Virus record (IMG/VR): IMGVR_UViG_3300033273_000613
Coordinates: 1-64,000 of that record
Source: a virus
Direction: 5' to 3' (one strand)
DNA length: 64,000 nucleotides
This document shows positions 1 through 27,000 of the stretch, piece by piece (positions within the stretch are counted from its first letter, which is position 1; every line of letters begins with the position of its first letter). Under the pieces are notes generated by a model. That model was not told where the DNA came from and made no database searches. It saw only the letters and a list, made by a program, of their open reading frames with translations. Position numbers and translations under genes: made by a program.

Positions 1-77
1 TTACTTGGTGTTGTTGATGGTGTATTTGTATATGTTGTTGTGGTAGTTGGAGTAATAGATGGTGTTACGGAAGGTGT
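1..77 (-). repeat. Exact direct repeat, copy at window edge
   Basis: These 77 bases are identical to 817-893, at an offset of 816 bases, which preserves the reading frame. Both copies encode Thr/Pro linker. The repeat may extend left of the window. Confidence 0.9.
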
Positions 78-9000: not shown

Positions 9001-12000
9001 TAATCATATATACTATTTTCGTTGAGTGCCGTCTGGCTTGGGTTAAATCTCCAACAAGTATCGTCATACTCTACAGCTACAAAATCAGTTAATAACGACC
9101 AATCTTCAGGATAGTTTAATTTTACTGTTTGTTCAAGATCACAACATTTTCTAAAAGTTCCAAGTCTGTAAATAGTTGGTGGTGGAGGGGTATATCCACA
9201 TTCTTCATGTTGACCACACTCTGATATACCAAAATTAAATGCGGGATTAAATGCTAGTACTACTACTACCTCTGGTTGAACACCACTAGGTACTATTGAA
9301 GCTTGAATACAAGTATCTTCATCCTTTATATTTACGGTATCAATATTTCCAAGGGTAGGTGGTTGTTGTACTATACCGAATTTGGAGACTACCGTTCCAA
9401 GAGGTTCTTGGATAAATCCACCACCAGATTGTAGTAGAATGTAGTAATCACCACTATTACATCCTCTAAATGTCGCAACTTCACATAAACTATCGATCGT
9501 ATGTGCCTCATCGATACATTGTGAACAATTGGTATAATCATTAAGGGCAACCTTGAATTGAACATTTGGTACAGGTTGTTCATCGGATATCTCGATTACA
9601 CTTACACATCTTATATCACCAACAATTACCCCGTTTTCTACACCATCGCAAATCGTATAACTATTAGCATTATCTGGTGGAGCTTGACCTGTTGATGGAT
9701 TTACATAAAAACTAAGGGCTACCCAATATGGGGTTGCAAATGTACCATTAAATTCTGGACAACAAGGTTGAATTTTGTAATACTTGATTTCACATAATTG
9801 TGAACATTCATCTTCGTTACAAAACTCACATGATGTAAATGAATTAGGATGGAAAATTAATTTATTATTTTCAATGATCCCAACATTTAATTGTTGTAGG
9901 TTTGTAACATTACCCCAATATGATGTTGTAACATCTTTAATACAAACTCCATAAACATCACCACAAGAACTATTATATTCAGGTGTTGGAATGTTTAAAA
10001 TTGATTGTAATGTCGACCCAATCGAATGAATTTGTGCAACGTTACCAAAAGGTGGATAATTTTGGAAATACTCTTCATTAGCATTTGTTATATCTAATAC
10101 AAATATTTCACCAGTACAACATACCTCTATTAATCTATATTGTAATACTGGTGCCAATTGACACTGAGGTGTCCCGTCATCATTGTATTGAATATTATAT
10201 TCTTCTCCTTGAATAATAGTACTCCAGTTTGGTCCGTATTGATTCGTGATACTAAAAGCAAACTCACATATTGAATCGAATCCTGCAGGTACCTGTTCAG
10301 GTCTATAGTGAATAGGCCAGTAACCGATCGGCCCATTAGAACTTGTTTGATCTACATATAAGTGTTTTGGATCATAAGCAAATGTGTTCGGTATCGGGGG
10401 TGCACCTTGTTCTTCTAAATCGTCTAACCAAGTTAAAATATTATCAAAATCAAAGATGATTGAAGATTCAGTATCTACTGATAAATTATTAGAATTTCCA
10501 TAAAATAAATTAGTATAACTTGGATCGTACTCACCAACAAAACCACCATAAGTCATCAGAGCGTGTTGTATTCCAACATTTTCACCAGATTGTATCCATG
10601 GTGGTAGTTCAATCCCATAAGTACTACTTATTAATTCCTCAACCTGACTTTGATTTTGAAGTGTTGAATTGATGAAATCTGCACCATATTGAAGAATATA
10701 AGGATTCTTCATTAGGAATACCGTATTGACAGGATAATTGATTATAAAGTCATATGATACGTTAACGTACCACCACTCTGGAAAACATTCAGATGATCCA
10801 CCATCATCAATGTCTCTACCTGCAGTTCCTGGACATAAAACCTCTTCATATATTTCAGGACAACAAAATTTGAATCTGACAAGTACCCTTCTTAATTCCC
10901 ATGGTTGTAGACAATTACATAAAGGTAAAGGATTAGTTGTACTCTCCAATAATCCAGTACCAAGACAATTATCAGGGAAAGAGAACGGTTGACTTATACC
11001 ACCGTAATCAATACCAAATTCTTCTAGATACTGCCAATTCCAAAATCCTGGAGCATCTGGAGTATACTGTAAATAAACAAACTTTGTGGGATTCAAGTCA
11101 TCACCACAATTTATTGGAGTATAAGACCCTTGAACTATTTTATAACAATTGATGTCTTGTACAGTATCAGTTTCCGTACTTATGGAGTACTCTATATTAT
11201 CTTGGAAAGGGAAAGGTATATCTACAATGTCGATATCAATATCGGTATATGTATACTGGAAGTCACCATAAGCAACGACTGTCGCACCACTTAAGAAGTC
11301 TATTTCATTTTCGAATAATAAATAAGAATATTGACCGGGTTGTTGATTGAAAAATGTATTAAAATTATTGTATAACTGAAGTGGACTTAAATCTTGGTTT
11401 TGTGCAAGTAACCCATATGCTTGTTCAGGTGTTACATAGACAAAAACATTTTCTATTATATTGTTATCTTCACTACAACAAGACTGTAAATTTACTTGAT
11501 AAGTTAAAAGTGGGTATTGATAACATTCGGGATTACTGTTCGGTGTTATACATACTCTAGCTAAGAAATCTTCGTAATTATTTTCACCAAAGTCCGTGGT
11601 ATTACCCACAATAATACCTGAAACATATAATTGTGTTGGTGTTGGATCACTAGGTGATGAACCCATCCAAAAGGCTTCCTGTTCCCAAATATCAATCTGT
11701 GCTTCAGTGACTGAATTGATTAATCTGATAGTCTGGAACCCATTTTGTATTATAGTTGATAAGAAATCATAGTTGTCATTTCCATTCAAATCATATCTGT
11801 TAATCCTAATCCCCATAGGAGATTCTAATTCACCTGTAAATGAAAGAACTGCATTATCACTCAAAAATACACCAACTTTACCTGGTTGGGTATCTGTAAA
11901 ATCTCCACCCCATACTACTTCGTAATCAAAACATTGAACATCACTTTGAGGTGACGGGCAAATGTTTTGTTGAGTTTCTTGTACAACATTTCCTGTTTGA

Positions 12001-15000
12001 TATAATAACTTATAAAGTACATCATATATATTGGCTATTCTGACAAACGGAAGACTTTCTAATTCCCATGGGTAAAAATACTGGGTTGTTGCATATGGTC
12101 GACCAGTTATACAACAAGAAATCCCTGCGAAATTATCATCATTTTGAGTACCAAAATCTAAAATTTCAGTGTTAAATACACCAAAATAATTAGAATATAC
12201 ATTTGGAGTTGCAGGTGTTGCCGAATTAATATTAGGACAATCTTGAATTGTTAATACTTCTTGATTAAAAATATTTATTAATTGGAATCCCTCTAGTGTT
12301 TCGCCTCTAGCAGTTTCATCATCAATACCATCTTTAGTGTACTGATACACTGGTGTAATTCTATTAAAACCTAAACCTACTTGAATTACAGGTATTTTAG
12401 ATCCGTTATACGTTGGATCACCATATGCACATGATTTTCTATATGTCCTTTTATCACTGTAAGATGTTGGGGTATCACTAGGATCTACACCACAACCATA
12501 ATTACCACTCGGTGGTTCACCCATAACAACTTTAGGTAAATCAGCCCTGTGGATTGGAATAGATCTTACACATGTGTAACCAGAATAATTTTCAGTCCAG
12601 GCACCACCATCTTCAACAGCAATGGGGCCAGTTCTATATTTAAAACTCTTATAGTTACCAACAACATCTCGTGTTGCACCTGGTTCTAGGTAAATAAAAT
12701 CAGTAAACCCATTTGGACCATCATCATCTGTCCAATAAACTTGTAAACCAGCAACGTGCTCCCAATACAAGAAGGTTTCATTAAAGAAGTTTCCATTTGG
12801 TGAAGGCTCATTCGAACCCGGAGTAGGATATCCACTCCAAGTCGCATCACCGGGTACTGTAAAATCTAAAACAAGCGGTTGACCTAAAGTGTTATTATAA
12901 TACTCACTCCATCCATTACCTGTTTGGGTATTATCGAAATCCCAGTTAAGTGGGGTTGGTCCATAAACATTAATTAATATTTGATCATTACAACTACAAT
13001 CATTCGAAAAATCAAAAAATGGTTCAGCACAATCTTGATACGTTTTCGCCCTGTGCGGGAATACCGAACCTAAACCAAACTTAGATCCGTTAGATCTAGT
13101 ATTAACCTCTCCTTTAAGACCCTGGTACTCCCAGATACCTGGATTATAGGCCTTTGAGTGAGGTGTAAGAACTGATCCAAAATTTTCGTCTAGTAAAACA
13201 CCAAAAGGAACTCCATCTGGTGTACCATCAGCAGGTCCAAAATTGTATTCATAAAGTGGACCTCTAGCACCTGTTCCCTCATAATTTGTATAGTACTCCC
13301 ATAAATTATCACAATACCCATAGTCATTACCATTTGGTCTCGGTAATTTGTCAAATCCATCAACGTTGTTGTATGCACATGCAGGTATAGATAATTTATA
13401 AGTTGTTGGTTTTCTATCACCAGACCCTAACCAACCATTTACAAGTGCATAATTGTTTTGAATTGTCCAACCAAAGTTATTACCATTGAAGTCAAAATCA
13501 TTAAATTGCTGTATTACCTCACCATTTTCGTTCAGGTTTGGTCTTCTATCTGAACCTCTACCTCTTTCATTCCAAATATCCGACCATATATGATAAAAGT
13601 TTCCTGAGTTACATCCTTGGAAATACTCGTAGATACACTCACCTCCAAACCAAGGAGCTTCTTGTCCAGTGTCACCTAAAGGTAACTTACTTAACGTATC
13701 GTCACAATTTTCACCTGTAGTTAATATATTAAAATGAAGTGGTGAATCTATGAAAAATGTAGAAATATTTGTAACTTCAACCAATCTCCAAAGACCACTG
13801 AAGTCAGATCCGTAGGAGACACCATCCTGTGTTATTTGCGCTTCACTTGAAAAATATCCACCCTCATTCTGTATTTGTTCGATTTGTTCCGCAGTTGCAA
13901 ACCTATAAGTTTGTAACTTACCTTCACAGTTATATGAATCTCTATCAAAACCAAAATAATTACCTTCTGGTCCATACATGGAATCGGGATCACATTGACA
14001 ACAATGTTCTACAACTATGACTGTTCTTTCTTCTCCACCAGCCGTCGTTAAACTTAAACATGCGTTTGATATTCCATCACCACACGGTTCAATATAACAA
14101 TTCCCGTAGTAGTTATTGACTGGGAGTACACAAGTATTACTTCCACATAATTGTTCAAATATAATATCGTAAACTTGTTCAAATTTAAACTCTGGACCAT
14201 CATTTATTATGATATTTTGAATTTGATTTTCTTCAAATTCATCAACAAAATAAGTGAAACAACCTTCAAATTCTTCGGGAGTCAATGAATCTGAATCATC
14301 TGTCAGATCTATACTAGTAGAGAAAAATTGACAAGTACGTCCAAATAGATCCCATCCACCACCATTACTAATATCACTAGAAGGCATTTCATATTGAAAA
14401 TCAGTAAATGCTAGGTTACTTGCCCAATATGGACCATTAGGTTTATAATCAATATCTTTGATTACTATGTATTGATCATTTGTCGAAGTAGAATATCCAT
14501 TTACTTTGAACCTGAAAAGTCTGCCAGTCACACAAGATCTCCACACATTAAATCCTCTACATCTCGGACTTGTGAAATTTTCGTCATAATCAACAAAAGG
14601 ATTTTGATCATATGGATTTTCAATAATTGGATATTCAACATTCGTAGTCTGATAAGGATCAATTGTTGTTGCCTCTAAAACAGTTTCGTATAAACCGTAA
14701 AATCTGGATCCATTAAGGGTCCCAAATGGTGCACCAAATGTACCTACCCAAAATGACGATGTTCCATATGGTCCGTAGTATAATGGACATTCAATAGCAT
14801 TCCAGGCTGATTGGTTATTTAAACCTTCATCAACATAAGTCGCATTTATATAATTCGCACTTACTACGTCTAATATCTCTACAGGTATACCGTCAACTCG
14901 GGTATACTTACATGTTAGATCACCACTACCATCATTTAACCCATTAATTTGTAAAACTTCTTCTAAAGATAAAGTTTCACCCCAACTCAAAACTTTAACA

Positions 15001-17165
15001 AGTAACTCAGTATCTTTCGGTACTATTTGATCATCTTCTATTTCACCAGACCCACTGTATGTATTAACATCACATAAAAGTCTTACTTTAACATATGGCT
15101 CATTCGGTTCAACATCTGGACAACTATAGACAGGTGGTTGTGAGAAATATTGAATCGGTGTACATCCTCCTCCAGCACAGTAATTATATACACTATTTCC
15201 ATCAGCATCTTCTTCCCAATCACCAGTAAAATTCCATTCACCAACTTCGTACACATTATAATACTCATAAGCGACACCGTTGTAGAATGCTTGAACTAAA
15301 TTTGGTTCAATAGGAAAATCAAATTCTTGTTCATTCCATATTACTGTCATCTCATCTGAAGGTAGATACAAAGTTTGAGGAACTATGTACGGTATATATC
15401 GTAATTCATATTCTACTCCATTGATTTCAAAGTCATTATATCCAGGATTTAATCCAGACTCAGTGTAAGGTAATCCCTCTTGATCTTTTACCGCTAAGTC
15501 AGTACCCCCAGCGGGGATTGCTGCTGTTACAAAACCACCACCATTAATTAGACCATCAAAACTGGTATCATAATATGTTTTTAACCAGTGATCAAGTGTC
15601 CAATTAGAAGCTGCATTCTCGTTATAATAGGACTGTAATGGATATACATCTGAAAAGGCTTGATATAAAACTTGTGATCCCTCACCTACAGCGTCCCTAA
15701 CCTCAAAAAACCAGTGTAATTTATAACATCTATTAAAATATGTTAATGTATCTGGTTGATTCATAAACCCAACTTGGTAGGTATAATCATACTTATAATT
15801 AATCAACCTATTCCAAGATAAAGCACTAAATGCACCTGCTAAGTGATCAGGATTTACAAATGGTGGTTCATTACCTTCACTAACTGGTCCATCCCAGTCA
15901 AGCCAATCAAGGTAGTTATTACTATAAGGAAACCATCCAAGATTTGGAGAATTAGGTAGAGGATTCGATGAATTATAAAAACCTGTTATATCACCGATTG
16001 GATCACCCAAAAAGTTCCATATGACTTTGGGTTTTGTATTATCATTTTGGACATGACAGAAAAAAGGTAATTGTCCAGAAAGATTAGGATCATACTCACC
16101 AAACGGATTAGTATAAAAACTATTACATGGACCTAAAATATTATTCTCTATACCACCAGGTTGAGAGTTACTACAATCAGTGAGAATCGCATAACCTCTA
16201 TAGAATTTGTCGTGCCATTGCCAATCAGTTAAATCGTAATCATTCAACATTTTTTGATTACGAGCAATTCCTAAAGGAGGATATTGGGTTTTACAATTAT
16301 TGTTTTTAGGATTTGTGAAATCTTCTTCATAAGTCCTACAACCAGATCCTTGTATTAAAGAGGGTTTGTCGTCTGATATAACACCTGGTAGATCAAGATA
16401 ATCTGTTTTTTCACTAGATGGTGAATAACCAAGTGATGTAAATGCAAACTTATCATAATCTGTTGGTAGTGAGATACCTAATGGATTATCTTTATTTTCT
16501 GTATACTCTGGTATCTCACCGTTGATATCAGTGATAGTATAACAAGTACTAATTTCAACCTCTTCACCAGTTATCGAATCCCTCGTTGTTTCTCTGACGA
16601 TCCATTTATTACCCCAGTAAAATCTAGGATGAATCGTATATTCCCCGTTTTCTTTTTCTACATAATCAAAGTTGAAATCAAATTCATTGAATTGATCAAA
16701 ACCATAGAAATTAAAACTTGTCTGATTATCCTCAACATAAGTCCACTTTTGTTTACCCTCAGCATTCCACATTGGAGGTAAACTCGGGTGAGGTGCACCA
16801 AAAATAAACTCTTCCTCTGAACCTATAGGGTAAAACTTATAGGTTGGGTCATCACCTTCACCCCAAAAACAGTTTCTTAACTTTACACCGTAGTCATATT
16901 TTTCCGATGTAATATTTTTCTCCGAAGTTTCAGGTATATCTTCAACCCCATTAAGTACAATACAAGTCTGACAATCCGCATATACCGGAATATTAGTGAC
17001 ACTCAATTGGGCTGTGTCTGATTCCTCATCAACAACCCAACATTTTTCATTATAAAAAAAGTATTTACCAACTTCAATGTCAAAAGCAAACTCAAAGTTA
17101 GCAGTACCTCCCGTGACTACACAATTTGAATTTACAATTGAACATTTCCGTCTATAAAGTGCCAT
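1..17165 (-). CDS. Giant Cys-module / Thr-Pro-linker protein, C-terminus outside window
   Basis: One frame is open from the ATG at 17163-17165 to the left edge, 5,721 codons; an in-frame stop at 17178-17180 fixes this start. Residues 1 to about 2,990 are aromatic-, Asn- and Cys-rich with CC and CxxC pairs and almost no Thr/Pro linkers. From about 2,990 onward, Cys modules (a CC pair, a central C[YWF], a late CxxC, a final Cys before PTPT) alternate with Thr/Pro/Gln/Asn strings, the longest about 245 codons. I see no signal peptide, catalytic motif or membrane segment. It follows two glycan-modifying genes and is probably a virion fibre or surface adhesin. The module matches no family I recognise, so function is inferred from composition and from its place in a phage tail region. 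It could also be a non-structural secreted protein. Confidence 0.9.
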   Translation of the reverse strand, partial: MALYRRKCSIVNSNCVVTGGTANFEFAFDIEVGKYFFYNEKCWVVDEESDTAQLSVTNIPVYADCQTCIVLNGVEDIPETSEKNITSEKYDYGVKLRNCFWGEGDDPTYKFYPIGSEEEFIFGAPHPSLPPMWNAEGKQKWTYVEDNQTSFNFYGFDQFNEFDFNFDYVEKENGEYTIHPRFYWGNKWIVRETTRDSITGEEVEISTCYTITDINGEIPEYTENKDNPLGISLPTDYDKFAFTSLGYSPSSEKTDYLDLPGVISDDKPSLIQGSGCRTYEEDFTNPKNNNCKTQYPPLGIARNQKMLNDYDLTDWQWHDKFYRGYAILTDCSNSQPGGIENNILGPCNSFYTNPFGEYDPNLSGQLPFFCHVQNDNTKPKVIWNFLGDPIGDITGFYNSSNPLPNSPNLGWFPYSNNYLDWLDWDGPVSEGNEPPFVNPDHLAGAFSALSWNRLINYKYDYTYQVGFMNQPDTLTYFNRCYKLHWFFEVRDAVGEGSQVLYQAFSDVYPLQSYYNENAASNWTLDHWLKTYYDTSFDGLINGGGFVTAAIPAGGTDLAVKDQEGLPYTESGLNPGYNDFEINGVEYELRYIPYIVPQTLYLPSDEMTVIWNEQEFDFPIEPNLVQAFYNGVAYEYYNVYEVGEWNFTGDWEEDADGNSVYNYCAGGGCTPIQYFSQPPVYSCPDVEPNEPYVKVRLLCDVNTYSGSGEIEDDQIVPKDTELLVKVLSWGETLSLEEVLQINGLNDGSGDLTCKYTRVDGIPVEILDVVSANYINATYVDEGLNNQSAWNAIECPLYYGPYGTSSFWVGTFGAPFGTLNGSRFYGLYETVLEATTIDPYQTTNVEYPIIENPYDQNPFVDYDENFTSPRCRGFNVWRSCVTGRLFRFKVNGYSTSTNDQYIVIKDIDYKPNGPYWASNLAFTDFQYEMPSSDISNGGGWDLFGRTCQFFSTSIDLTDDSDSLTPEEFEGCFTYFVDEFEENQIQNIIINDGPEFKFEQVYDIIFEQLCGSNTCVLPVNNYYGNCYIEPCGDGISNACLSLTTAGGEERTVIVVEHCCQCDPDSMYGPEGNYFGFDRDSYNCEGKLQTYRFATAEQIEQIQNEGGYFSSEAQITQDGVSYGSDFSGLWRLVEVTNISTFFIDSPLHFNILTTGENCDDTLSKLPLGDTGQEAPWFGGECIYEYFQGCNSGNFYHIWSDIWNERGRGSDRRPNLNENGEVIQQFNDFDFNGNNFGWTIQNNYALVNGWLGSGDRKPTTYKLSIPACAYNNVDGFDKLPRPNGNDYGYCDNLWEYYTNYEGTGARGPLYEYNFGPADGTPDGVPFGVLLDENFGSVLTPHSKAYNPGIWEYQGLKGEVNTRSNGSKFGLGSVFPHRAKTYQDCAEPFFDFSNDCSCNDQILINVYGPTPLNWDFDNTQTGNGWSEYYNNTLGQPLVLDFTVPGDATWSGYPTPGSNEPSPNGNFFNETFLYWEHVAGLQVYWTDDDGPNGFTDFIYLEPGATRDVVGNYKSFKYRTGPIAVEDGGAWTENYSGYTCVRSIPIHRADLPKVVMGEPPSGNYGCGVDPSDTPTSYSDKRTYRKSCAYGDPTYNGSKIPVIQVGLGFNRITPVYQYTKDGIDDETARGETLEGFQLINIFNQEVLTIQDCPNINSATPATPNVYSNYFGVFNTEILDFGTQNDDNFAGISCCITGRPYATTQYFYPWELESLPFVRIANIYDVLYKLLYQTGNVVQETQQNICPSPQSDVQCFDYEVVWGGDFTDTQPGKVGVFLSDNAVLSFTGELESPMGIRINRYDLNGNDNYDFLSTIIQNGFQTIRLINSVTEAQIDIWEQEAFWMGSSPSDPTPTQLYVSGIIVGNTTDFGENNYEDFLARVCITPNSNPECYQYPLLTYQVNLQSCCSEDNNIIENVFVYVTPEQAYGLLAQNQDLSPLQLYNNFNTFFNQQPGQYSYLLFENEIDFLSGATVVAYGDFQYTYTDIDIDIVDIPFPFQDNIEYSISTETDTVQDINCYKIVQGSYTPINCGDDLNPTKFVYLQYTPDAPGFWNWQYLEEFGIDYGGISQPFSFPDNCLGTGLLESTTNPLPLCNCLQPWELRRVLVRFKFCCPEIYEEVLCPGTAGRDIDDGGSSECFPEWWYVNVSYDFIINYPVNTVFLMKNPYILQYGADFINSTLQNQSQVEELISSTYGIELPPWIQSGENVGIQHALMTYGGFVGEYDPSYTNLFYGNSNNLSVDTESSIIFDFDNILTWLDDLEEQGAPPIPNTFAYDPKHLYVDQTSSNGPIGYWPIHYRPEQVPAGFDSICEFAFSITNQYGPNWSTIIQGEEYNIQYNDDGTPQCQLAPVLQYRLIEVCCTGEIFVLDITNANEEYFQNYPPFGNVAQIHSIGSTLQSILNIPTPEYNSSCGDVYGVCIKDVTTSYWGNVTNLQQLNVGIIENNKLIFHPNSFTSCEFCNEDECSQLCEIKYYKIQPCCPEFNGTFATPYWVALSFYVNPSTGQAPPDNANSYTICDGVENGVIVGDIRCVSVIEISDEQPVPNVQFKVALNDYTNCSQCIDEAHTIDSLCEVATFRGCNSGDYYILLQSGGGFIQEPLGTVVSKFGIVQQPPTLGNIDTVNIKDEDTCIQASIVPSGVQPEVVVVLAFNPAFNFGISECGQHEECGYTPPPPTIYRLGTFRKCCDLEQTVKLNYPEDWSLLTDFVAVEYDDTCWRFNPSQTALNENSIYDYVDVYFENGCDECTELIDPCPPPEPEYEIVAAVPCCGGTAINVEINTLIEIQEGDGVVVGETCYFLDTNLSSQTPSFGTFDDVIPFLCDNEVCDCGDDVEPEELPVTIELTDCCTGTIPEKIKIPADQLQDVSENGRVYIINGCAFKFRAQVPTSLDEYEFRENWDFANCKASRLIGGYKCSIWELALGSCCDESGGIFGNINVVIPCGPLGIDGLEENWPYNDYSTYLYDFGDGQYCYSIENVSFVDSVGGPVYDEIISSISQFSEDCPSCNELVPCPTQTQTPTPTLTQTPTQTVSNTPTKFTQVWRLKQCCDPDGTFTDLNIGYTFDNIPQQGQSFLYNFKCYYLDTPLQVQDNSIDVIWNNVTHYDDCDECKQENNKNCKSRKLVSCQTGLVYVIVSSQNGVSANLLQFSNGIEQQYYFIDLYNISLNEGDDWFGQETLNSLDSFCFYPVPDSTQADIIIPLDETPIDSTFYSLYVTNVESCQSSLCNAPTQTASFTPTQTPTQTPTPTQTQTPTQTQTQTGTQTPTQTPTTTYSQTPTQTQTPTQTQTPTNTTTPTFTPTPSSSLTPGASPTQTRTQTPTQTPTSSNTQTPTQTQTPTQTSTVTNSPTKTETPTKTPTQTKTPTQTQTPTQTETPTQTPTPTSSLSEVNIIVKDCCSETIEKQIRIHSQNLSWVDDNKCFVIDDCCFFASSIGGNGEDGIYLSYDFEDCTTCTAPVNYPCNSWLLGLEDCCDGTTTSLFFNIGCGDELIVNLGTHVNISGTCYKIIEYAPILIAAPYLSPDNFHNSCDCSEDVTPCPTQTASFTPTNSQTPTQTPTNSNTPTNSFTPTPTTTTTQSRTPTKTPTPTTTPTQSIILVEAIACCNTVLGEQIIESFVLDNYVPNQDLETFSVPSYPSTCWQVLSYSVVIPPGATVETASFSIDCNACRLALNLNQNCDSVTVQGCTSGQIFTIYVNGEQVVEPIGTVISFSEILSSWDSCGTFIEYNSNYSVVSIEDYEYANSCNDLVCDPGTQTPSNSQTPTQTPTQTQTPTKTPTPTLSPTPTLQWITIECTDTCPGLENSIILLRVPYNSEIVGSFVSLDGNCYEVTNVVETDLFYPTYTGPFHDNLPECSDFVGTPCPTQTRTQTPTNSQTPSQTRTQTPTPTNTKTPTQTKTPTQTKTPTQTPTQTQTPTFTPTETRTPTPTPTQLFRVVAAVNCCDGLAKLFLVETEIIESYGGVSGIGVGNFPIGVSTDPSDSDSPCWYVVEVPFPLGFYFPGLYKLTNFNYGLQDNDSPNCYICNEQNGGGTCGQAFVPDLDDPSYINSRNALLEVSPSPTQSVTTTPTTTPTLTNTPSVTNSSTPTPTTTPNLRTYLALPLCEDQSGTPIGEPQYVNMNEGTSVGSESIILISGVCYQVTIDTGTYDTSYQYYSLTNYTGATECISENTCPSATPVVTPSVTPTLTPTLSITPTNSPTVSVTPTIPYEYWRIDNCCNEYTEFARITPKTVTVGSIVSDGTFCYTVEEKVDYVSNPIGVNIVEGATSCSDCNCPTSTATVTPSVTPTQSISATVTPSVTPTNTVTPTNTQSITPTKSLTATPGLTKTPTPTQTPSQTQTPTVTPSVTNTLTVTPTTTITPTKTVTKSPILSSTPTNTQTPTSTTTPTTTPTITPTQTVTTTKNLVLGVNATSIIAFKCCGGSQTYFFNVPNTVVEGQTFEYGNECYYITKYFVNDNESYEFIYGEIFADCDTCFLDSSTTPCPTSTPTTTNTQTPSNTPSNTTTNTSVLTQTPTSTSTQTPTNTPTNTTTPTVTSTNTASPVYNYIGCIIEDCYGNGVVLTATTLSSNSIGDVGVVNYGDYSGQCFTIITQLPSILSNDVFVVNESYSGSCSTCIASNPGPTPTPTVTTSVTNSPTTTQTPSITPTKSITPTQTPTPTNGLRTVVVKSCCTTKLGGNTVSQQLVNTSNNAQVDDVIRIQNSCYVITEILRVVLSDLDFYPIAFVHVEGENTCTICLSDDETVPCPTYTPTPTPTVTSTFTLTPTTTYTYTPTNTNTVTNTPTVTKTVTVTPSLTISLTTTITPTVTITNTPTNRPGSLLPKAPFRIDGIDVGLTACCPGTNGTVVTANRTLFVPDEITDTLQVGDTISLENGVTKDGKLYKCFVITSLNLAFVPEQSDFIFNYYGPEGSEQCKASESEECHSQYCEPCQLPGTFIQFTNFGTNIIEFRPVGQVIKVVHGGFIDYPTFNNDDNNCFTYVDSETVASGSLRTYESIEVVDECNTVGCYGYVPTTPTASFTPTTTQTPTQTITETPTQTPTPTITKTSTQTPTVSNTPTNTAAITYKTVYARLDCSGYGDNFIPYNIPDDGINYQSIYYVFNCWTIFNGNAPFNEYAIQVGFENLYLDSESCGSVNATTPCPTVTASFTPSPTSSITKTPTPTQTTTPTETPTNTPSNTNTTTPTPTTTLTSTKYLELYKCESCCDGETASFHFFVDTIDLVDVNGNKSFEYNGRCWRATEGPYVQQGDLPIITTVYENCVFCYNATGHYCTPTPTETVTSTPTNTVTSSQTPTNTETPTNTPTVSNTPTNSVTPTSSITPTNTQTPTNTQTVTPSITPTFTPSVTPSITPTNTITNSNTPTNTPSITPTNTQTNTPTPSNTRTNTPTPTPSKSSQATPEPTSTATETPTPTSSITPSNTVTPSITPSNTQSATPSVTPSITPTFTPSVTPSITPTTTTTYTNTPSTTPSNTPTNTPSNTQSVTPSTTLTLSITPSQTQTNTLTPTSSVTVTPTKNVSRYIAESCCPGDGTTIVLSDAGLDITGNTYFVVYEGQCYELVDEATVPVSNLSYLVPNLYTDCIDCANQNIIASQCPTPTPTNTPAPTESITPTPTNSATPTQTKPIVYKTVGAIIDCPGSSFEGNVFYFNIPDDGISWGALFYFTTCFKITGDTTYQSYWVEIPYDDLYITLSECETEEPSTPCPTQTATVTPSITSSQTPSVTPSITPTTTTTYTNTPSTTPS
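683..1417 (-). repeat. Long uninterrupted Thr/Pro linker block in the giant protein
   Basis: About 245 consecutive codons encode only Thr, Pro, Ser, Asn, Gln, Val, Ile and a few other residues, in a TPT-x-TPT rhythm with no Cys. The composition resembles mucin stalks and is expected to be extended and unfolded. It is the longest such block in this gene. Confidence 0.9.
817..893 (-). repeat. Exact direct repeat, second copy
   Basis: Identical to bases 1-77. The interval between the copies holds a complete linker block plus Cys modules, so recombination between them would add or remove an in-frame unit of 272 codons. Confidence 0.9.
7060..7525 (-). repeat. Thr/Pro/Gln linker block in the giant protein
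   Basis: About 150 codons of TQTPTQT-type sequence, richer in Gln than the linkers near the left edge. It separates two Cys-module groups and lies close to the junction between the linker-poor N-terminal half and the linker-rich C-terminal half. Confidence 0.85.
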
Positions 17166-17217: not shown

Positions 17218-19629
17218 TTATGATTCTTTTCTGAGACTTGCTTCGTAGTGATCAAATCTATCATGTTCTGTTGGTGATAAAAGAAGAATCCCTGGTTTAA
17301 TTACATTCTTTTTTGTCTCTTGAAACATGAATGACATCCAAGTTTGTTCGTGAGGAGAAGCCCATTTTGTATCTAAAAACATTTTTTTATTTCCTGTTTT
17401 AGAAACTAACTGTGGCCAATTAGAATAATAAACTTCACCATCAGAATATGGTAATCCATTATGTATTTTTATATTATTAAATACAGTCCTAGGAGCATTA
17501 GGATCTAATCCTATCCTAGGAAGTTTACTATAGTCTGGCCAATACTCTTCTCTGACGGATTGTGGTACATTATACCAAGACCACTGGGTCGAGTTGTCAC
17601 CATAGAACTCACTAAATGATAGTTTCAAAAAGTCAAAATCTTCTTTATTAATTATTTCTAAAATTGTATCATATAACTTAGCGTGATGTCTTGGGAAACC
17701 ATTCCTACATGTACTATCTTTTCCAGAATAAAAGAACATGTCATCTTCGAAGAATAAATAATAATCATATTCATTTTCATCTGCATGTTCAGCGACAAAT
17801 TGCCTTCCACCACAGACACCTAAATTTTCATCCATCTTTAAATGAATTGCATTATATTTGTCACACAAAATTTTATATTCATTATATGTACTTAAATCTG
17901 TTGAGTTATCGATCAAGTATATATCAGGTTTTTGCAAAAAATTCTGATCATAATACAACATAGACTTAAACAACGTTTCAACTTGTTTAGGACTATTAAA
18001 AGTAAGTATATATAAAGCAACTTTGTTTACATCTAAATCTGTATTTCCACCAATAATTCTCTTTTTTTCAGATTTTACCTCGTGTTCATTGTTTTTTAGA
18101 TCTTCGAAAAATTTTGATAATAAACCATTATAGTTTATTGAATAGTACTCATATAAACTAGGATTAGTATATAAAAGAATTGAAAAGAGTGACTCTTCTG
18201 TACCCATATATCCATTACCCAATGTGGTCGCCATTAATCCATAATATTCGTTATTAAATTTTTCAATAGCATCTTTTGATCCACCAAAGAATCCTCCTCT
18301 ACACACTTTATCAACTTTAGCATTTGTTAATTCGCACATATACTTATAGTCAAATCCATGTATTTCATTATCAGCCTCATATGGGAAAGCAACAAAAGTA
18401 ATTTTATTATTATCCTTCAAATTTCTCAAAACTCTGTCGTGAGTAAAATATCCAGGATGTACAGTATTTGAAATACCACCATCTAACCAGTATAATCTTT
18501 TGGAATTGAATTTGTCAAAAATCCTAGCATCATTAAGTAAAAATGGTTTTGACATAACTAACGGATTATACATTTCTAATCTACTCTGAGTTGAATCAAC
18601 TAACCATCCAGCTTGATTTTTCCATTCAGGATTATTCCTTATCGATTGAATTTCATCATACATATGATTTTTGAACCAATCTTGAGTCCTTTTTATAAAT
18701 TGAGTATTTTCAGTAGTCCTATTTGGATTATCAAATATTAGTTCACTCAAGTCATCATCACCGAATATAATCATGTTGTTCGGTATTGAAAGTATTTGTT
18801 TAAATTTTTCTATATAATGTTTATACGATCTGGACCACCCTTCACTAAGTTCATCTCTCTTAATATTCCATATACCCGTGACAATAGTAATATCACTATC
18901 ATCACCTTCTTGATTGACCACTTTTTCACTTTCTTGTGTTATTTCAATTTCTAAAGAGTCTTGTAATCTATTAGTCAAAATTTTATTTGACTTACCTTTA
19001 ACAATAAATTTACCTAGTTGACCACAAACTTCCTCTACATCGTAATGAATTCCTCTTTCTCTAAAAAAGTCTCTAATAGCCGCATCTACACCAGGTAGAT
19101 CATGTCTCAAATAATCGTGAAAAAATATCATCCCTCCCTCAACCATTCTATCATACACTTTTACTAAACTATCATATATTGAATCATAAAAATCACCATC
19201 TAAAAATGCAAAAGATATTTTTTCTGGGAGATCTTGTTGTTTAATATCTTTAAACCAACCTTTGACTATTCTATCAGGTGGATTGAGATTATTCTGTCTA
19301 AAGTTGGATACTAATACGTCTTTGGTAGTCTTTAAAGTAAATGGTCTCCATCCAGTATTTTCTTCCCATTCACTTAATTCTGGTAAACCTTCAAAAGAAT
19401 CATAGACATATAACTTTTTATCACTTTGGTTAGTGTCTAACGTTTTTCTGAGATACTTGCTTGATTCTCCAACATAACATCCCAATTCAACAACGTCACC
19501 ATCTAAATTACTTTCTAAAACTGTATTTAAGTTGATCACTAGGTGCATTATTTGCTCGTGGTTTATAATACTACCATCAACTTTTTTATTATGAAACGTT
19601 AAAATTTCAGAAATTTTCCCACTCATCAT
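17218..19629 (-). CDS. Three-domain glycan-modifying protein: TylF-like methyltransferase, HtrL/YibB-like and GT2-like glycosyltransferase
   Basis: Residues about 1-215 resemble TylF/MycF sugar O-methyltransferases: a SAM-binding ELGCYVGESS at about 46, DSFEGLP, FLDGD, and an HDY where the family usually has DDY. Residues about 243-530 resemble the HtrL/YibB (WlaTC) family, with WLDGG, a GGFFGG element near 444 and a conserved EE. Residues about 534-803 resemble a GT-A/GT2 transferase, starting ALYILTFN, with an acidic FFEDD near 626. The frame begins with two consecutive ATGs in an A-rich leader lacking a Shine-Dalgarno sequence. It starts 8 bases after the GT60-like gene and precedes the giant Thr/Pro protein. 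Sugar extension plus O-methyl capping on one polypeptide is the likely role; donor and acceptor are unknown. Domain calls are by motif reading. Confidence 0.85.
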   Translation of the reverse strand: MMSGKISEILTFHNKKVDGSIINHEQIMHLVINLNTVLESNLDGDVVELGCYVGESSKYLRKTLDTNQSDKKLYVYDSFEGLPELSEWEENTGWRPFTLKTTKDVLVSNFRQNNLNPPDRIVKGWFKDIKQQDLPEKISFAFLDGDFYDSIYDSLVKVYDRMVEGGMIFFHDYLRHDLPGVDAAIRDFFRERGIHYDVEEVCGQLGKFIVKGKSNKILTNRLQDSLEIEITQESEKVVNQEGDDSDITIVTGIWNIKRDELSEGWSRSYKHYIEKFKQILSIPNNMIIFGDDDLSELIFDNPNRTTENTQFIKRTQDWFKNHMYDEIQSIRNNPEWKNQAGWLVDSTQSRLEMYNPLVMSKPFLLNDARIFDKFNSKRLYWLDGGISNTVHPGYFTHDRVLRNLKDNNKITFVAFPYEADNEIHGFDYKYMCELTNAKVDKVCRGGFFGGSKDAIEKFNNEYYGLMATTLGNGYMGTEESLFSILLYTNPSLYEYYSINYNGLLSKFFEDLKNNEHEVKSEKKRIIGGNTDLDVNKVALYILTFNSPKQVETLFKSMLYYDQNFLQKPDIYLIDNSTDLSTYNEYKILCDKYNAIHLKMDENLGVCGGRQFVAEHADENEYDYYLFFEDDMFFYSGKDSTCRNGFPRHHAKLYDTILEIINKEDFDFLKLSFSEFYGDNSTQWSWYNVPQSVREEYWPDYSKLPRIGLDPNAPRTVFNNIKIHNGLPYSDGEVYYSNWPQLVSKTGNKKMFLDTKWASPHEQTWMSFMFQETKKNVIKPGILLLSPTEHDRFDHYEASLRKES

Positions 19630-19637
19630 TTTTTAAA

Positions 19638-20906
19638 TTATAAATTTCCAGTTAATCTTTCACACCACCCTTTTTCTGTGGAGTATGGCCAAACAACCCA
19701 ATATGCCGGTTTTTCAGTAATATTAAATTCTCTCCAAATTTTACAGTATCCATCGGGATCCCTCATCATCCTATCAATTTCTGACTTATCCGCATCTTTT
19801 CTGTAAATGGTTTTGTCATCACTATCATGGAATGCAACAACCCAGAATTCATAATCCTTTTCCGGAACAGAATCATAACCTACATCAATACAATGTTTAT
19901 ATATTGTTGCAAAACTCTCTAACCATGATTCTTCATCACCGTAATGATCAATTCCTGGGTTTGGTGGATAGTGCTTGTCTAGAGTATATTGTTGAATACC
20001 TCTTTTTCCAAAGTGTAATCCTGAATATTCCTCATATTCTTGAAGTGTTCTGACAGAACCAAATCCATATTCACCATCATGACCTTCTTGTTCCTCACCA
20101 TCCATCGCAAAAAGTTTCCTGTTAGTTGCGTGAGATTTTTGGTTTCTACTTACCCATTGCTTATCATCGTCCCACTGTTTTGTACGACCTTTTCTAGTAT
20201 ATTCGTGCCATATGAGAACTTTATGTGGGTGGAATAAATCATACCCCCAAGTGTAAGCCCTAGCAGCTATTGAAATTTCTTCTCCATGGAAATAATATTC
20301 TGGATTGTGTTGGACCTCTGTTGAAAACTTACCAAGAGTAAACGCGTAATGTGCAGAATAGAATCTAGACGGTACTGGAGTATCTAATTCTTGCCAGTTC
20401 GGTATTGTTTCTGGTAAGAAGAATACTGCACCTTCCGGTATAAATCGGTCAAACGCCATTCTCCAGGGTTCTTGTACTCTAGCTTGAGGATCATTGTCTG
20501 GATCAAAAGATGATACGTAAGCAGTTAATAAAGGTTTTGGAATTCCCTGTTTTTGTAACTGTTTTACCATATCAATCATTTCAACATCCCAATTAGGTGC
20601 AAAACGCATGTGTGAGTCAATTTGTAATGTATATGTTTCACCACTATACACTTGTTGTACTTGGTGTCTTGCCCAACAGACTCCTTTACTTTCTTGGTAA
20701 GGTACATCGATAATTCTAAATCTTTTATCTTTAGAATACTTATCTAAATTATCAAAACCATCTTCTGGATGGTATTGTCTACAAACACCGATGACCAAGT
20801 TTTTAGGTCTTTTAGCGTTTTTAATCATATCTTCAATTGTCTTAACTAATTCAGGATCCCTGTAAGACGCTATTTGTACGAATATTGTTTCTTTTTTTCT
20901 AGGCAT
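19638..20906 (-). CDS. GT60-like polypeptide GlcNAc-transferase homologue
   Basis: This 422-residue protein matches the family containing Dictyostelium Skp1 Gnt1 and trypanosome mucin-type polypeptide alpha-GlcNAc-transferases (Pfam GlcNAc, CAZy GT60). Visible hallmarks are FVQIASYRDPEL at residues 9-20, KGVCWAR near 73, the donor/metal-binding LQIDSHMRF near 93-101 followed by NWD, a later IWHEYTR, and YGFGSVRTLQEYE toward the C-terminus. Known members transfer GlcNAc from UDP-GlcNAc to Thr or hydroxyproline in proteins. There is no signal peptide or membrane anchor, so it should act in the cytoplasm. It lies between the 2,340-residue and the over-5,721-residue Thr/Pro-linker proteins and 8 bases before the three-domain gene. 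Self-modification of those linkers is inference; host glycan modification is the alternative. Confidence 0.88.
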   Translation of the reverse strand: MPRKKETIFVQIASYRDPELVKTIEDMIKNAKRPKNLVIGVCRQYHPEDGFDNLDKYSKDKRFRIIDVPYQESKGVCWARHQVQQVYSGETYTLQIDSHMRFAPNWDVEMIDMVKQLQKQGIPKPLLTAYVSSFDPDNDPQARVQEPWRMAFDRFIPEGAVFFLPETIPNWQELDTPVPSRFYSAHYAFTLGKFSTEVQHNPEYYFHGEEISIAARAYTWGYDLFHPHKVLIWHEYTRKGRTKQWDDDKQWVSRNQKSHATNRKLFAMDGEEQEGHDGEYGFGSVRTLQEYEEYSGLHFGKRGIQQYTLDKHYPPNPGIDHYGDEESWLESFATIYKHCIDVGYDSVPEKDYEFWVVAFHDSDDKTIYRKDADKSEIDRMMRDPDGYCKIWREFNITEKPAYWVVWPYSTEKGWCERLTGNL

Positions 20907-21006: not shown

Positions 21007-24000
21007 TCATTTTTCAGGACTACTAAAACTATTAAAGAATTGTATACCATCACCTATATGAGCCAAACCATGATAATAAGATTCAAAATTAACAGTTGTG
21101 AATGGTTGAGTAATATTAATAGTTACATCACCATAGACAAACAAATACTCATTACCATCTATACCGTCTTTTAATCCTCTTTCAAATTGACCCGAATATG
21201 TGAATCCTGGTGTAAATCTATTATAGAATGCAATTGCGAAGTCTGCCTTTACATCTTTAATTGTAAATACTCCTAAACCAACCCCATATTCAGAATTGTA
21301 ACCACCACCATTAAATGAATATCTATATCCCTCATCACCAAATAAGATTCCAACTGTAGTACTAGTTGTTAATGGAATCACATTTGTTAATTGAGTCGGT
21401 GTCATACTAGGTGTCAAAGTAGGTGTTGGTGTCTGATTTGGTGTAGATGAAGGTGTTATCATATTTTCTTGATAATAAGTCGGTAAATAGTCATTACATG
21501 AGTCACAGTCTTCGAACTTGATTACATTGTCAAGATATTCATATCCCGGAATCTCACCAGGAATTTCTTCAATAACCCACCAACAATATAAATTATATAT
21601 GATTCTATCATTAACACTTAGATCACCACTAATATTTACTATCTCATAATTATTATTTTCACAGCTAAACAAGACATATGACTTATAACAAGAAACTTGT
21701 TCGGTACAAGTATAACAATTATTAAAATTAGTTTGATCAACATATTCATAACCAAAGAACGGACCAACAGCCAAACTTTCAAATAACTCATAACAACCAG
21801 CCTCACCAGTAGCTATTGTACCAACTGGTAAATATTCACTAGCATTTACATAAGTATATTCTGATGTACAACATGATTTAGCCAATCTTAATCTAAACGA
21901 AGGAGTTGAAGTTGGTGTTTTAGTAACAGTCACTGATGGTGTAGGTGTAACCGTTGGTCTTATAACCCTATTTGAACTATAACAAACATCGCAATCAGTA
22001 TACCAACTATTTACACTAGGAGCCTGATTATTTCTAGGAGATTCCAATTGCATAACTCGTTTGTAACAAGTTGAAGAATCCGGATCTTTAACAACACCAT
22101 TAACCGGGAAGTCAGCAACTATATTAAAATACTTGTACTTTGTGTCATCATCACAAGAAACACATAAATAATAGAGATATGAATAACGTGCCGCGGTTGT
22201 ACTAGCAGGTGTTCTTGTAAGTGTTTTAGTAGGTGTCAGAGTTGGTGTAGTAGTAGGTGTAGGTGTGAAACAGACATTATCATTCAAACAATCACTAATC
22301 GTATTTCCTGTAAAGTATTGTGGTGTAAATAGTTCCGTACCATTACCTCCATTTATTCCCACTAAAGTAACACATTCACCACTAAATACACCCACAATTC
22401 CAAAGTTAACTGGTATCTGAGCAACTGCACTGTAAATATTTCCACTACATATACCACTCAATTGTACTTTAACTAGGTTTGGTGTTGAAGTTGGTGTTGG
22501 TGTAATATCTTGTCTAGTTATCGATGGTGTTGGACTATTAGTAACTGTCGGAGTTGGGAACGGAGTCTTTGTAATTGTTTTAGTTGGCGTAGCAGTTGGT
22601 GTGACACTAGCTGTTGGTGTTGGTGTAACTCCATCACAAGTTAGATTATTCAATTGATAACATTGTGAACAGTTATCATAAGAATCAATTACATATGGAT
22701 ATATTGAATTTGAGTTACCACTAAATTGGAAGAATGGATCAGGAAGTTGTGTATAACAATCTGAATCATGATAGAATACTTTATACTCATCAGCAAAATA
22801 GTATGATTCAGGTACATTGAAGTAGTATAAGTCATTATAAGTGAGACCTGTCTGATCTGGTAGACAACAATTTTTAATAAACGCAGTCAAAATAAATCTA
22901 GTACTAGGACTTACAGTAGGTGTAAGACTAGATGTAATAGATGGCGTAGGAGTTGTCGTATTAGTTGGTGTTTGTGAAATTAATGGTGTTGGACATGGAT
23001 AATTTTCAGAACATTGAGTCAATCCTGTGAAATTAGTATTACTAGCATATAATTGATTAAAAGGTTCAATAGATGGTACTATTTGTAAAATAGTGAAACA
23101 CCGTTGAACTGTGTAAGTTAAATACGGGTAATCTAATATTACAATATCACCAACTTGTGAATTCTGACTAACATTACCTATTACATAATTGACTGGTGGA
23201 CAGTTTCCACTCAATGCTGCAATAACCCATTCCATTGACTTACTAGGTGTTGGTGTATTTGTTAATGATGTAGTAGGTGTCACTGATGGTATAAACGGAA
23301 CATTGGTAGGTGTCGGAGTAATCGACGCAGTTGGCGAATTCGAAGGTGTGTTAGTTGGTGTCAATCCCGGGGTAGCAGTTGTAGATGGTGTAATAACTGG
23401 GGTTGACGAATTTGTATTACTTGGAGTTACTGTTGTTGTACTTGTAACTGTATTTGTATTAGTTGGTGTTACAGTTCTAGTTGGTGTTACCGAAGGTGTC
23501 ACACTACTTGTAGGTGTATTAGTCGGTGTTGTTGTTGGTGTACTACTATTTGTAGGTGTAGGACTAATACAAGTATTTCCAGTAAATGTACATGGATAAA
23601 TTCCTGTGGCATATGAACTATTATAACCATCAGTAATATAAGTAAACAAAGTGAAACATTGTGCACTGAACCCAACAGTATCACCAGTTGTTAAACCTAA
23701 ATGACTACTAATGTTAACACCCGCATATGTTAATGAACATTCATCATAAGCAACCCATTGTACAAAATCCGGTGTCGGACTTAGTGTTGGTGTAGGTGTT
23801 AGGGAGGCATTAGGTGTAACTGTAACCGTAGGTGTCACAGTATTTGTCGGTGTATTTGTTGGTGTGTTTGTTGATGTTGGTGTATTGGTAGGTGTGGGTG
23901 TACTTGTCTGGAATGTAGTTTTAGTTATTGATGGTGTTGGTGTATTTGTAGGCGTATTAGAAGGTGTTGCGGTATTTGTTGATGTTGGTGTAGGCGTTTG

Positions 24001-27000
24001 TGTAGATCCCTCTGAAGGTGATGGTGAAGGTGTTGGAGTTGAAGTTGAAGTTGGATCTGGAGTTTGATCGATAGACTTTGAAATCGTTGGGGTAACAGTC
24101 TGAGAATTTGTTGGTGTATTAGTAGGTGTCTGAGTTGTTGTCGATGTGTTTGTCGGTGTTGGTGTAGTTGTTTGTGAACTTGTTGGTGTATTTGTAGGTG
24201 TTACCGATGTTGTTGGACTGTTTGTTGGCGTATTTGTTGGACATACTCCATGTGCATTCTGACACTGAACTACAGTGTCATAATATAGACCATAATATGT
24301 GGGTAAGGATGGTGCATCATAACTATATACTTCAGTAATAGTATAACAATCATATTCAACGCTGACGGTTTTTCCTGATGACCCATTAAGTATATTATAA
24401 TAAATTACATCATTACTATCACAAACATTTACTAATTTACCTAGGACAATCGAAGTTGTTGTCGTAGGTGTTGGTGTCGCAGTTTCAGTATTAGTTGGTG
24501 TTGGTGTTGGAGTTAGACAAACCACAGCACTTGTACAAGTCTCACAATCGTCATACACCCCAAAGATAGTCGTATCATAATTACTATTATATGGGATTAC
24601 CTCAACTACCTCATAGCAATTATTTTCCTCTATGTTCCAGTAAACACGCCCAGGTTTAAGATATAAACCAAAGTTTGTGTATCCGTTGAAGAATGTATAA
24701 TCACCGTAACAACAAGATCTCATGACGTAACTCTGTAAACCTCTAGTTAACGAAGGTGTAGGAGTCTGACTCGATGTTGGAGTATTAGTTTTAGTAATCG
24801 TTGGTGTCTGTGATACCGTAGCTGTCGGTGTGACTGTTGATGTGACAGATGGTGTAGGTGTTGGTGTAAGACATGGATGTGCTGAGAGACATTCAGAGTC
24901 GCTACTAAATTGGAAATTAACTGGTCCCAAAACCTCTCCAAGAGGGACAAATTCATCTGAGAATATGTAGGTAATCTCCCAACAACTATTACTATAAAAA
25001 CCGAAATTCCCTATAATAGGGTCAGTAGCAGAATAGAAGACTTCACCAAACAATTGATAACTAGGAGAACCAGAAAAACATATTGGAAACGCATAAACCA
25101 ATTTTAATGTACTCGTCCTAGTTATTGATGGTGTTACACTATTAGTTGGGGTATTTGTAGCCGTATTAGTTGGTGTTTGAGTTTGTGTTCTTGTAGGTGT
25201 TGGTGTATTACAAACATTAGTATCGGTACACTCTGAACAAGTATCAAAATTAGTCGAAAGAGCAATCTCTGAAGTACCAGTATATCCAGTAACTTGTGTA
25301 GTCAATGTAAAACACTGTGAACTGACCTCTACGATATCACCCACTTGACTTCCAAATGGTGCAGATACAAATTTTACATCACCATTACAACATCCACTTG
25401 CACTCCACACATAATAAGTTTGAGTTCTAGTTACTGTAGGTGTCTGAGAAGTTGTTGGCGTATTAGAAGGAGTTACAGTCGCTTTAGGTGTCTTTGTAAC
25501 CGTTTGTGTTGGTGTCAATGTTGTTGTAGGTGTTGGTGTCAAAGTGGGACAAGGTTCCCTATCAGTACATGCAGTACATGCGGTATAAGATACGTACTCA
25601 CCACTTTCGTAATCAATTAAATCATAACTGTTACCCGTAATTTCGATGATTGTATAACACTCTCCCTGATACCTAATAACTGTACCAATTGTGAAATCAT
25701 TTGGTGCCCTTAATAATAATTCATCCGCGTCTCCTTGGAAATCTGTACAACAGCTTATTACCCTTACACCTCTGGTGTCTGCACTAGCTGATGGTGTTGG
25801 TGCAGGAAGTTTACCAGAGTCAACACTAGAAGTTGGTGTAGGTGTAGGTGTTTGAGACCTAGTTGGTGTATTTGTCGGCGTGTTTGATGATGTCACTGTA
25901 GGAGTTAGTGTGCTTGTTGGTGTCTGTGTCGGCGTTACACATACATTTTCTGCGATACATACATCACAGTTTTCGAAATGTTCAGTATCAACGTAATTAC
26001 CATCATTACAAGGACCGTCATATAAGAATGATAGGTTATGAAAACATTCACCTGAAAATATTACAGTATCATTATAATTGAAAATAGAAGGTACTGATAA
26101 AATTTTTGGATTACCACTACAGCACGATCTAGCAGCTACACATTTATAAAATATTGTCGATGTGGGTGTCGCGGCGGGAGTTTTAGTTACAGTCTTAGTA
26201 GGTGTAGCTGTTTGTGACGGAGTAATACTTGGAGTCTGGGGTGGGGTCTTAGTGTTAGTAGGAGTATTAGTTTGTGTACTTGTTGTTGTAACAGTCGCAG
26301 TTGGTGTTGGGGTATTAGATGAAGATATAGTAGGTGTTAAATTAGGAGTGACACTATTTGTAGGTGTAGGTTGGGGTGTTTTAGTAATTGTCGGTGTCTG
26401 AGTGACTACAGGCGTTTTAGTTTGTGTCGGTGTGTTAGTAGGTGTTAAAGTGTTTGTAACACTTACCGTTGGTGTTTGTGTAATTGTACCAGTAATAGAA
26501 GGTGTATTAGTTACTGTAGGTGTTTGTGAAGGATCAGGTGGTCCACAAGGTGAAAATTGTGTACAGTATTCACAGTCTTCAAATATCGATGTTATTTGTG
26601 GATACTGATTGTTTACTTCCTCATCAAAAATAACTTGTATACTATAACAATCACCATCGAAGAATATTGATTTATCAATTTCTGGATTTAAAAAGGTTGG
26701 TACATTAACCGCAATCCATTCTGTTACATCATAACAACAATTTTTTACAGCAACTACTGTTTTGTAAACAATTTCTTGTGTTGGTGTTAAAGTTTGGGTT
26801 GGGGTCGGAGTAGGTGTACATGGATTTTCAGCTTGACAAAGATTACAGTTTAAGTAAAAATTATCGATCTCTGGGTAAACAGTACCCTCAAAAACCGTAT
26901 CAGGTAGTGGAACATTCATGAATGTGTAATAACATTCATTTTCATATTCGAAATAAAATGTATTGTTTAGTTGATTCTCACTTACATCTAATTTAAAGTA

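Follow-up and report, generated by a model that had tools for sequence, protein, structure and literature searches.

The window analyzed here is a stretch of 64,000 nucleotides from the DNA of a large aquatic phage (positions 1 to 64,000 of IMG/VR record IMGVR_UViG_3300033273_000613) that encodes a protein in which a methyltransferase and two glycosyltransferase-type domains are joined. A gene for a PF11397/GT60-type enzyme lies 8 bp upstream of the fusion gene. By their coordinates, the two are flanked at distances of 52 and 100 bp by genes for giant proteins of at least 5,721 and of 2,340 residues, rich in threonine and proline (Thr/Pro), and the gene for a third giant of 3,440 residues lies farther upstream. 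A first-pass annotation had described three domains that are normally encoded as separate genes, fused next to a putative protein-N-acetylglucosamine (GlcNAc) initiator, and had proposed an assembly line that extends and O-methylates a short glycan.

Domain composition of the fusion protein

The fusion is encoded by a single unbroken reading frame with an ATG start and no internal stops. Its AlphaFold2 model, built on a 49-row alignment, has a mean predicted local distance difference test (pLDDT) score of 83.8 and contains three confident domains, with low-confidence linkers at residues 214 to 244 and 523 to 529. In searches with Pfam hidden Markov models (HMMs), TylF and HtrL_YibB matched above their gathering cut-offs, while the C-terminal third remained below the cut-offs and is assigned by its fold. 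The three-domain description stands on an intact open reading frame (ORF), on Pfam for two domains, and on fold for the third.

Domain 1 matches the TylF profile (PF05711) over residues 20 to 201 (E = 1.5e-28; 100.2 bits; cut-off, 23). Its structural matches include SpnH, NovP, and MycF, with Z scores of 24 to 25 over 202 to 209 residues and sequence similarity reaching 6e-16; catechol-type enzymes score lower, with a Z of about 15. The DGD metal-site motif is kept in all 17 domain 1 sequences. By sequence and model, domain 1 is closest to sugar O-methyltransferases, and S-adenosylmethionine-dependent sugar methylation is its predicted activity. Domain 2 matches HtrL_YibB (PF09612) over residues 245 to 495 (E = 1.9e-13; 51.1 bits; cut-off, 24.1), as do 49 of 49 relatives, and fails the YibB equivalog TIGR02192 (62.4 bits; cut-off, 264.9). 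Judged by these profiles, it is a member of the YibB superfamily distinct from YibB itself. Our literature search found no paper giving a measured activity for any YibB protein.

Domain 3, taken from the model as residues 530 to 791, aligns with human B4GALNT1 at a Z of 15, in support of a GT-A fold, and its acidic DxD-like motif, EDDM, is invariant across the 49 alignment rows. Foldseek also returned matches of about 600 columns, to LH3, COLGALT1, LARGE1, K4 chondroitin polymerase, and heparosan synthase 2, all of which are proteins with two GT-A-type domains. These long alignments have root mean square deviations of about 19 to 27 Å, so the domain arrangement is unmatched. The Foldseek matches suggest that the YibB-GT2 portion is a double transferase. 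Sequence searches of the PDB with the initiator, YibB, and GT2 profiles gave no credible match.

The neighboring enzyme and the giant Thr/Pro-rich proteins

The neighboring gene product matches PF11397 at 4e-70 (237.3 bits; cut-off, 21), and its model has a pLDDT of 88.9 and a predicted template modeling (pTM) score of 0.85. All 29 of its best structural matches are polypeptide N-acetylgalactosamine (GalNAc)-transferases, with Z scores of 19 to 21; other folds follow at about 17. A DxH motif (DSH) replaces DxD, with D97 and H99 invariant in 50 of 50 phage and bacterial relatives and the C-terminal H234 present in 49. The same replacement of DxD by DxH has been reported for GT27 and GT60, two families described as O-glycosylating Ser/Thr of polypeptides; reports of GT60 come only from prokaryotes and protists (PMC7185993). 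An enzyme of this type from Trypanosoma cruzi glycosylates the peptide KPPTTTTTTTTKPP with alpha-GlcNAc, requires Mn2+, and does not use a dolichol donor (PMC3769586). By profile, motif, and modeled fold, the neighbor is a member of a polypeptide-acting family. It is probably a polypeptide O-GlcNAc initiator, as the first-pass annotation had supposed.

The giant proteins consist of repeated cysteine-rich modules of about 80 residues, often with the pattern CC...C...CxxC, joined by Thr/Pro linkers. The linkers hold 257 Thr residues in the 2,340-residue protein, 412 in the protein cut by the record end, and 269 in the 3,440-residue protein. Pfam gave no match in the two giants scanned. Since a Baseplate_J-like gene lies in the window, we regard the region as a tail module. 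Two further large proteins in the same gene row (28070 to 33838 and 34533 to 39044, minus strand) have subthreshold matches to the metallopeptidase families Reprolysin and Matrixin.

Table 1. Features of the window
Feature	Coordinates	Strand	Size or residues	Basis or remark
Fusion protein: TylF-type methyltransferase, HtrL_YibB, and GT2-like glycosyltransferase	17218..19629	-	803 aa	
Domain 1, TylF/MycF/NovP/SpnH-type sugar O-methyltransferase	18991..19629	-	aa 1-213	Pfam and fold
Domain 2, HtrL_YibB, probable glycosyltransferase	18070..18897	-	aa 245-520	Pfam and Foldseek
Domain 3, GT-A/GT2-like glycosyltransferase	17257..18042	-	aa 530-791	EDDM at aa 628-631
PF11397/GT60-type enzyme, probable polypeptide O-GlcNAc initiator	19638..20906	-		Pfam, fold, DSH at aa 97-99, His 234
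Giant protein, candidate acceptor	21007..28029	-	2340 aa	15 Thr/Pro/Ser linkers and cysteine-rich modules
Giant protein, candidate acceptor	3..17165	-	at least 5721 aa	23 Thr/Pro/Ser linkers; cut by record end
Giant protein, candidate acceptor	39075..49397	-	3440 aa	15 Thr/Pro/Ser linkers
Baseplate wedge/Baseplate_J-like protein	62381..63331	-		Marks the tail module

The reading we favor, and hold to be reasonably probable, is that a phage cassette for mucin-type O-glycosylation serves the phage's own giant fibre-like proteins, the fusion being its extension-and-capping enzyme; these mucin-like giants are probably what the cassette decorates. The PF11397/GT60 enzyme would add the first N-acetylhexosamine, probably alpha-GlcNAc from UDP-GlcNAc, to Thr/Ser residues that lie in the Thr/Pro linkers of the neighboring giants; this would happen in the cytoplasm of the host and need no lipid carrier. 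The tandem YibB and GT2 domains would then add one sugar each, or act in alternation, and the TylF-type domain would cap the chain by O-methylating one of the added sugars at a hydroxyl. The virion would thereby gain giant fibres in which stiff, glycosylated, and methylated linkers separate cysteine-rich beads, with stiffness, protease resistance, or shielding as the presumed benefit. The make-up of the genes is consistent with the initiate, extend, and methylate order of the proposed assembly line, while catalysis, donor sugars, linkages, step order, glycan length, joint action, and acceptor identity are what we infer, largely from the enzyme families.

Conservation and linkage in phages and bacteria

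A scan of IMG/VR returned 563 relatives of the fusion, of which the closest 80 were kept; the counts below are of related loci. YibB and GT2 are joined in one protein in all 80, so the notion of normally separate genes holds only in part. The methyltransferase is what varies: the N terminus carries TylF in 21 relatives besides the window, another extension in 9, and none in the rest. An assembly artifact is rejected, as the 21 other contigs show the identical TylF-YibB-GT2 architecture. Among the 49 aligned rows, six carry an FkbM-type methyltransferase and one a CmcI/FtsJ-like extension. The YibB-GT2 tree requires 14 label changes in total, and well-supported branches force at least five TylF changes; a single origin of the methyltransferase fusion is therefore not supported. 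Given the constant fusion in 80 of 80 relatives and these label changes, YibB-GT2 is the core and the N-terminal methyltransferase is swappable (TylF, FkbM, CmcI-like, or absent).

The flank upstream of the fusion exceeds 8 kb in 43 phage loci. All 43 have the initiator upstream of YibB-GT2 and on its strand; 39 contain a Thr/Pro-rich ORF, which in 36 of them is no more than 150 bp away from the block that runs from initiator to fusion. When loci were merged at 95% identity, the initiator was found in 34/34, the Thr/Pro-rich ORF in 31/34, and adjacency in 28/34; at 70% identity, the values were 15/15, 14/15, and 11/15. The window is the most compact arrangement, the 43 loci having 1.4 to 9 kb of other genes between initiator and fusion. 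The intervening genes scanned encode GT25, GT10, FkbM and CmcI-like methyltransferases, and sulfotransferase, with a carbamoyltransferase in phage XacN1. In one locus (L069, 2001 to 6581), the genes from initiator to YibB-GT2 include sulfotransferase, GT1-like, FkbM methyltransferase, GT10 fucosyltransferase-like, and CmcI-like genes, and relatives of this kind may build larger glycans.

Genes of this kind would also suit enzymes that modify host lipopolysaccharide (LPS) or another surface polysaccharide, for instance to exclude competing phages. YibB is named in bacterial LPS and lipooligosaccharide loci, and stand-alone YibB occurs in polysaccharide-type clusters of a cyanophage. Yet control loci with stand-alone YibB on cyanophage-like contigs had the initiator in 0 of 12 and a Thr/Pro-rich ORF in 0 of 12, whereas giant structural genes surround the pair in the window, whose first member belongs to a polypeptide-acting family. 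Nor did the window proteins scanned include a match to a lipid carrier, flippase, or polymerase. (Helicase-anchored control loci, whose flanks end short of the Thr/Pro region, gave no usable contrast.) Of the outcomes that would have spoken against the first-pass proposal, neither a lack of HMM support nor evidence of host-LPS targeting was encountered, and we rate LPS modification as less likely, at roughly one chance in ten.

Decoration of Thr/Pro-rich proteins is also consistent with what is seen in isolated phages. Among 50,697 phage records, the initiator matched only in XacN1, RAS14, and CM1, and all three carry YibB-GT2; RAS14 and CM1 are counted as one case because they are close relatives. 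A Thr/Pro pattern matched 32 times in XacN1, 22 in RAS14, and 22 in CM1, compared with zero in RaK2, GAP32, 121Q, phiKZ, and T4 and one in P-SSM2, a rough comparison given the differing base composition of these genomes. RAS14 carries six tandem fibre-like genes with Thr/Pro linkers (194369 to 203046; L205, 4370 to 13047), with related N termini and differing C termini. The authors of the XacN1 study (PMC5852040) report at least two glycoproteins in its virions and propose the phage glycosyltransferases ORF328 and ORF334 as their makers; ORF334 is the homolog of the window initiator.

The acceptor may instead be another structural protein, such as capsid, tail tube, sheath, or baseplate, with Thr/Pro genes nearby only through the tail-fibre region. 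The XacN1 glycoproteins go unnamed in the text consulted, most Thr/Pro arrays in XacN1 and RAS14 are distant from the pair, and 2023 work, as cited in PMC10877033, has phage-encoded glycosyltransferases modifying capsid and tail tube. However, the bacterial copies, which belong to no tail module, adjoin Thr/Pro proteins as well, and the closest characterized relatives use Thr-rich mucin peptides (PMC3769586). A different virion acceptor seems unlikely, although it is the most serious of the alternatives. Our literature search found no paper linking these enzymes to Thr/Pro-repeat proteins of phages, a weak negative as most subscription journals lay outside its coverage.

Scanning genome contigs turned up eight bacterial loci, with the initiator present in all five that have enough flank. 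Each of these five genomes also encodes, beside the pair, a Thr/Pro-rich protein whose leader looks twin-arginine-like by eye; such a leader would fit cytoplasmic modification preceding export. Several of these loci come from metagenome bins, in which contig assignment may err, while Jiulongibacter is an isolate with a 1.3-Mb contig. In Jiulongibacter sediminis (L218, 4450 to 11653), two divergent PF11397 genes enclose the gene for the Thr/Pro-rich protein with the twin-arginine (Tat)-like leader; a carbamoyltransferase-like gene and an FkbM-YibB-GT2 fusion come next. Six of the nine genome-wide Thr/Pro codon-pattern matches of this species fall inside that enclosed gene, and 7 of 12 adjoin the PF11397 gene in a Bacteroidia metagenome-assembled genome (MAG). 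Saprospiraceae and Halieaceae genomes show a weaker signal, and pattern controls are above zero. The Saprospiraceae protein ends in a type IX secretion system sorting domain. Strong PF11397 matches are rare: of 395 Bacteroidota, only Jiulongibacter itself has one, and the class of the Halieaceae MAG adds three more genomes out of 369. Three gammaproteobacteria with PF11397 and without YibB-GT2 have no Thr/Pro neighbor within flanks of just 1 to 2 kb. One short PF11397 gene without YibB-GT2 (L346, 1327 to 3717; short flanks) adjoins what by eye is an adhesin-like gene start. At a separate locus (L238, 73 to 2509), which lacks YibB-GT2, a PF11397 gene directly follows a Thr/Pro-rich ORF, possibly a minimal form of the cassette.

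The Jiulongibacter and Saprospiraceae YibB-GT2 copies nest within phage copies near the window, and this nesting suggests exchange between phages and Bacteroidota. The conserved pair, with a plausible Thr/Pro acceptor adjacent in phages and bacteria, strengthens the assembly-line idea, which is partly borne out. We lean, by a narrow margin over doubt, toward a mucin-type system shared by phages and some bacteria, in which a GT60 initiator and YibB-GT2, with interchangeable methyltransferase caps, are dedicated to Thr/Pro-repeat proteins, namely giant virion fibres and Tat-like exported surface proteins of Bacteroidota and Halieaceae.

Several observations weigh against a methylating double transferase dedicated to Thr/Pro proteins. 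The pTM of the fusion model is only 0.44, a low inter-domain confidence that leaves the domain arrangement unfixed, and the YibB fold was judged from this whole-fusion model only. The DDY motif of SpnH and NovP is HDY or HDF in 17 of 17 domain 1 sequences, a change from an acidic residue to His. Domain 3 scores 18.0 to 20.3 bits against GT2 (PF00535), at about 1e-3 and below the cut-off of 23.3. A Thr/Pro-rich ORF lies within 10 kb in only 4 of 17 XacN1-type loci. Lastly, only 6 of 98 Thr/Pro-rich phage loci have an initiator nearby; such proteins are common without the cassette and were rejected as its predictor.

Domain 3 also resembles, below the cut-off of 27.5, the TET-associated glycosyltransferase TAGT (PF20691; 19.5 to 20.7 bits; 4e-4 to 1e-3), and a weak beta-glucosyl-HMC-glucosyltransferase match was seen, as might be expected if the glycosyltransferase domains acted on modified bases of phage DNA. 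Eleven relatives gave no Tet/JBP match, a weak negative as control genomes gave none either. That the domains are tightly linked to Thr/Pro proteins and an initiator of polypeptide type, bacterial genomes included, argues otherwise, and we regard DNA modification, the less likely target, as very improbable.

If the proposed glycosylation of Thr/Pro-repeat proteins is correct, GT60-started mucin-type O-glycosylation would extend beyond protists, as a cassette that moves among large phages of aquatic habitats and a small number of bacteria. The YibB family, of unknown function in Pfam, would gain a testable role, and the XacN1 virion glycoproteins a possible explanation. With methyltransferases being swapped, the glycan would be a surface trait that changes fast, and the system would hint at the way in which fibre proteins several thousand residues long are built and protected by phages.

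Comparison with known systems

We take TcOGNT-2 of T. cruzi and Gnt2 of Dictyostelium to be members of GT60. These alpha-GlcNAc-transferases share family and DxH motif with the window initiator, and their acceptors are Thr-rich, Pro-containing mucins, like the candidate acceptors here (PMC3769586, PMC7185993). They are eukaryotic Golgi enzymes, whereas the initiator, its activity predicted, is phage encoded, presumably cytoplasmic, and located beside a fused extender and methylator. GT27 polypeptide GalNAc-transferases resemble it in predicted fold (Z, 19 to 21) and DxH metal motif, but identity in structural alignments is only 10 to 14%.

SpnH, NovP, and MycF, of the TylF family, are alike to domain 1 in sequence and fold; they are free-standing enzymes of antibiotic pathways, whereas domain 1 is fused and has HDY rather than DDY in its metal-site motif. 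K4 chondroitin polymerase, heparosan synthase 2, LARGE1, COLGALT1, and LH3 share with YibB-GT2 the tandem glycosyltransferase-type domains but no close sequence relation. XacN1 has homologs of both members of the pair (ORF334 and ORF330), Thr/Pro repeats, and reported virion glycoproteins; it differs in lacking the fused methyltransferase and in having a carbamoyltransferase and other genes between the pair. Finally, the phage glycosyltransferases of the 2023 work, as cited in PMC10877033, act on their own virion, as we propose here, although their acceptors are capsid and tail tube rather than fibre-like proteins.
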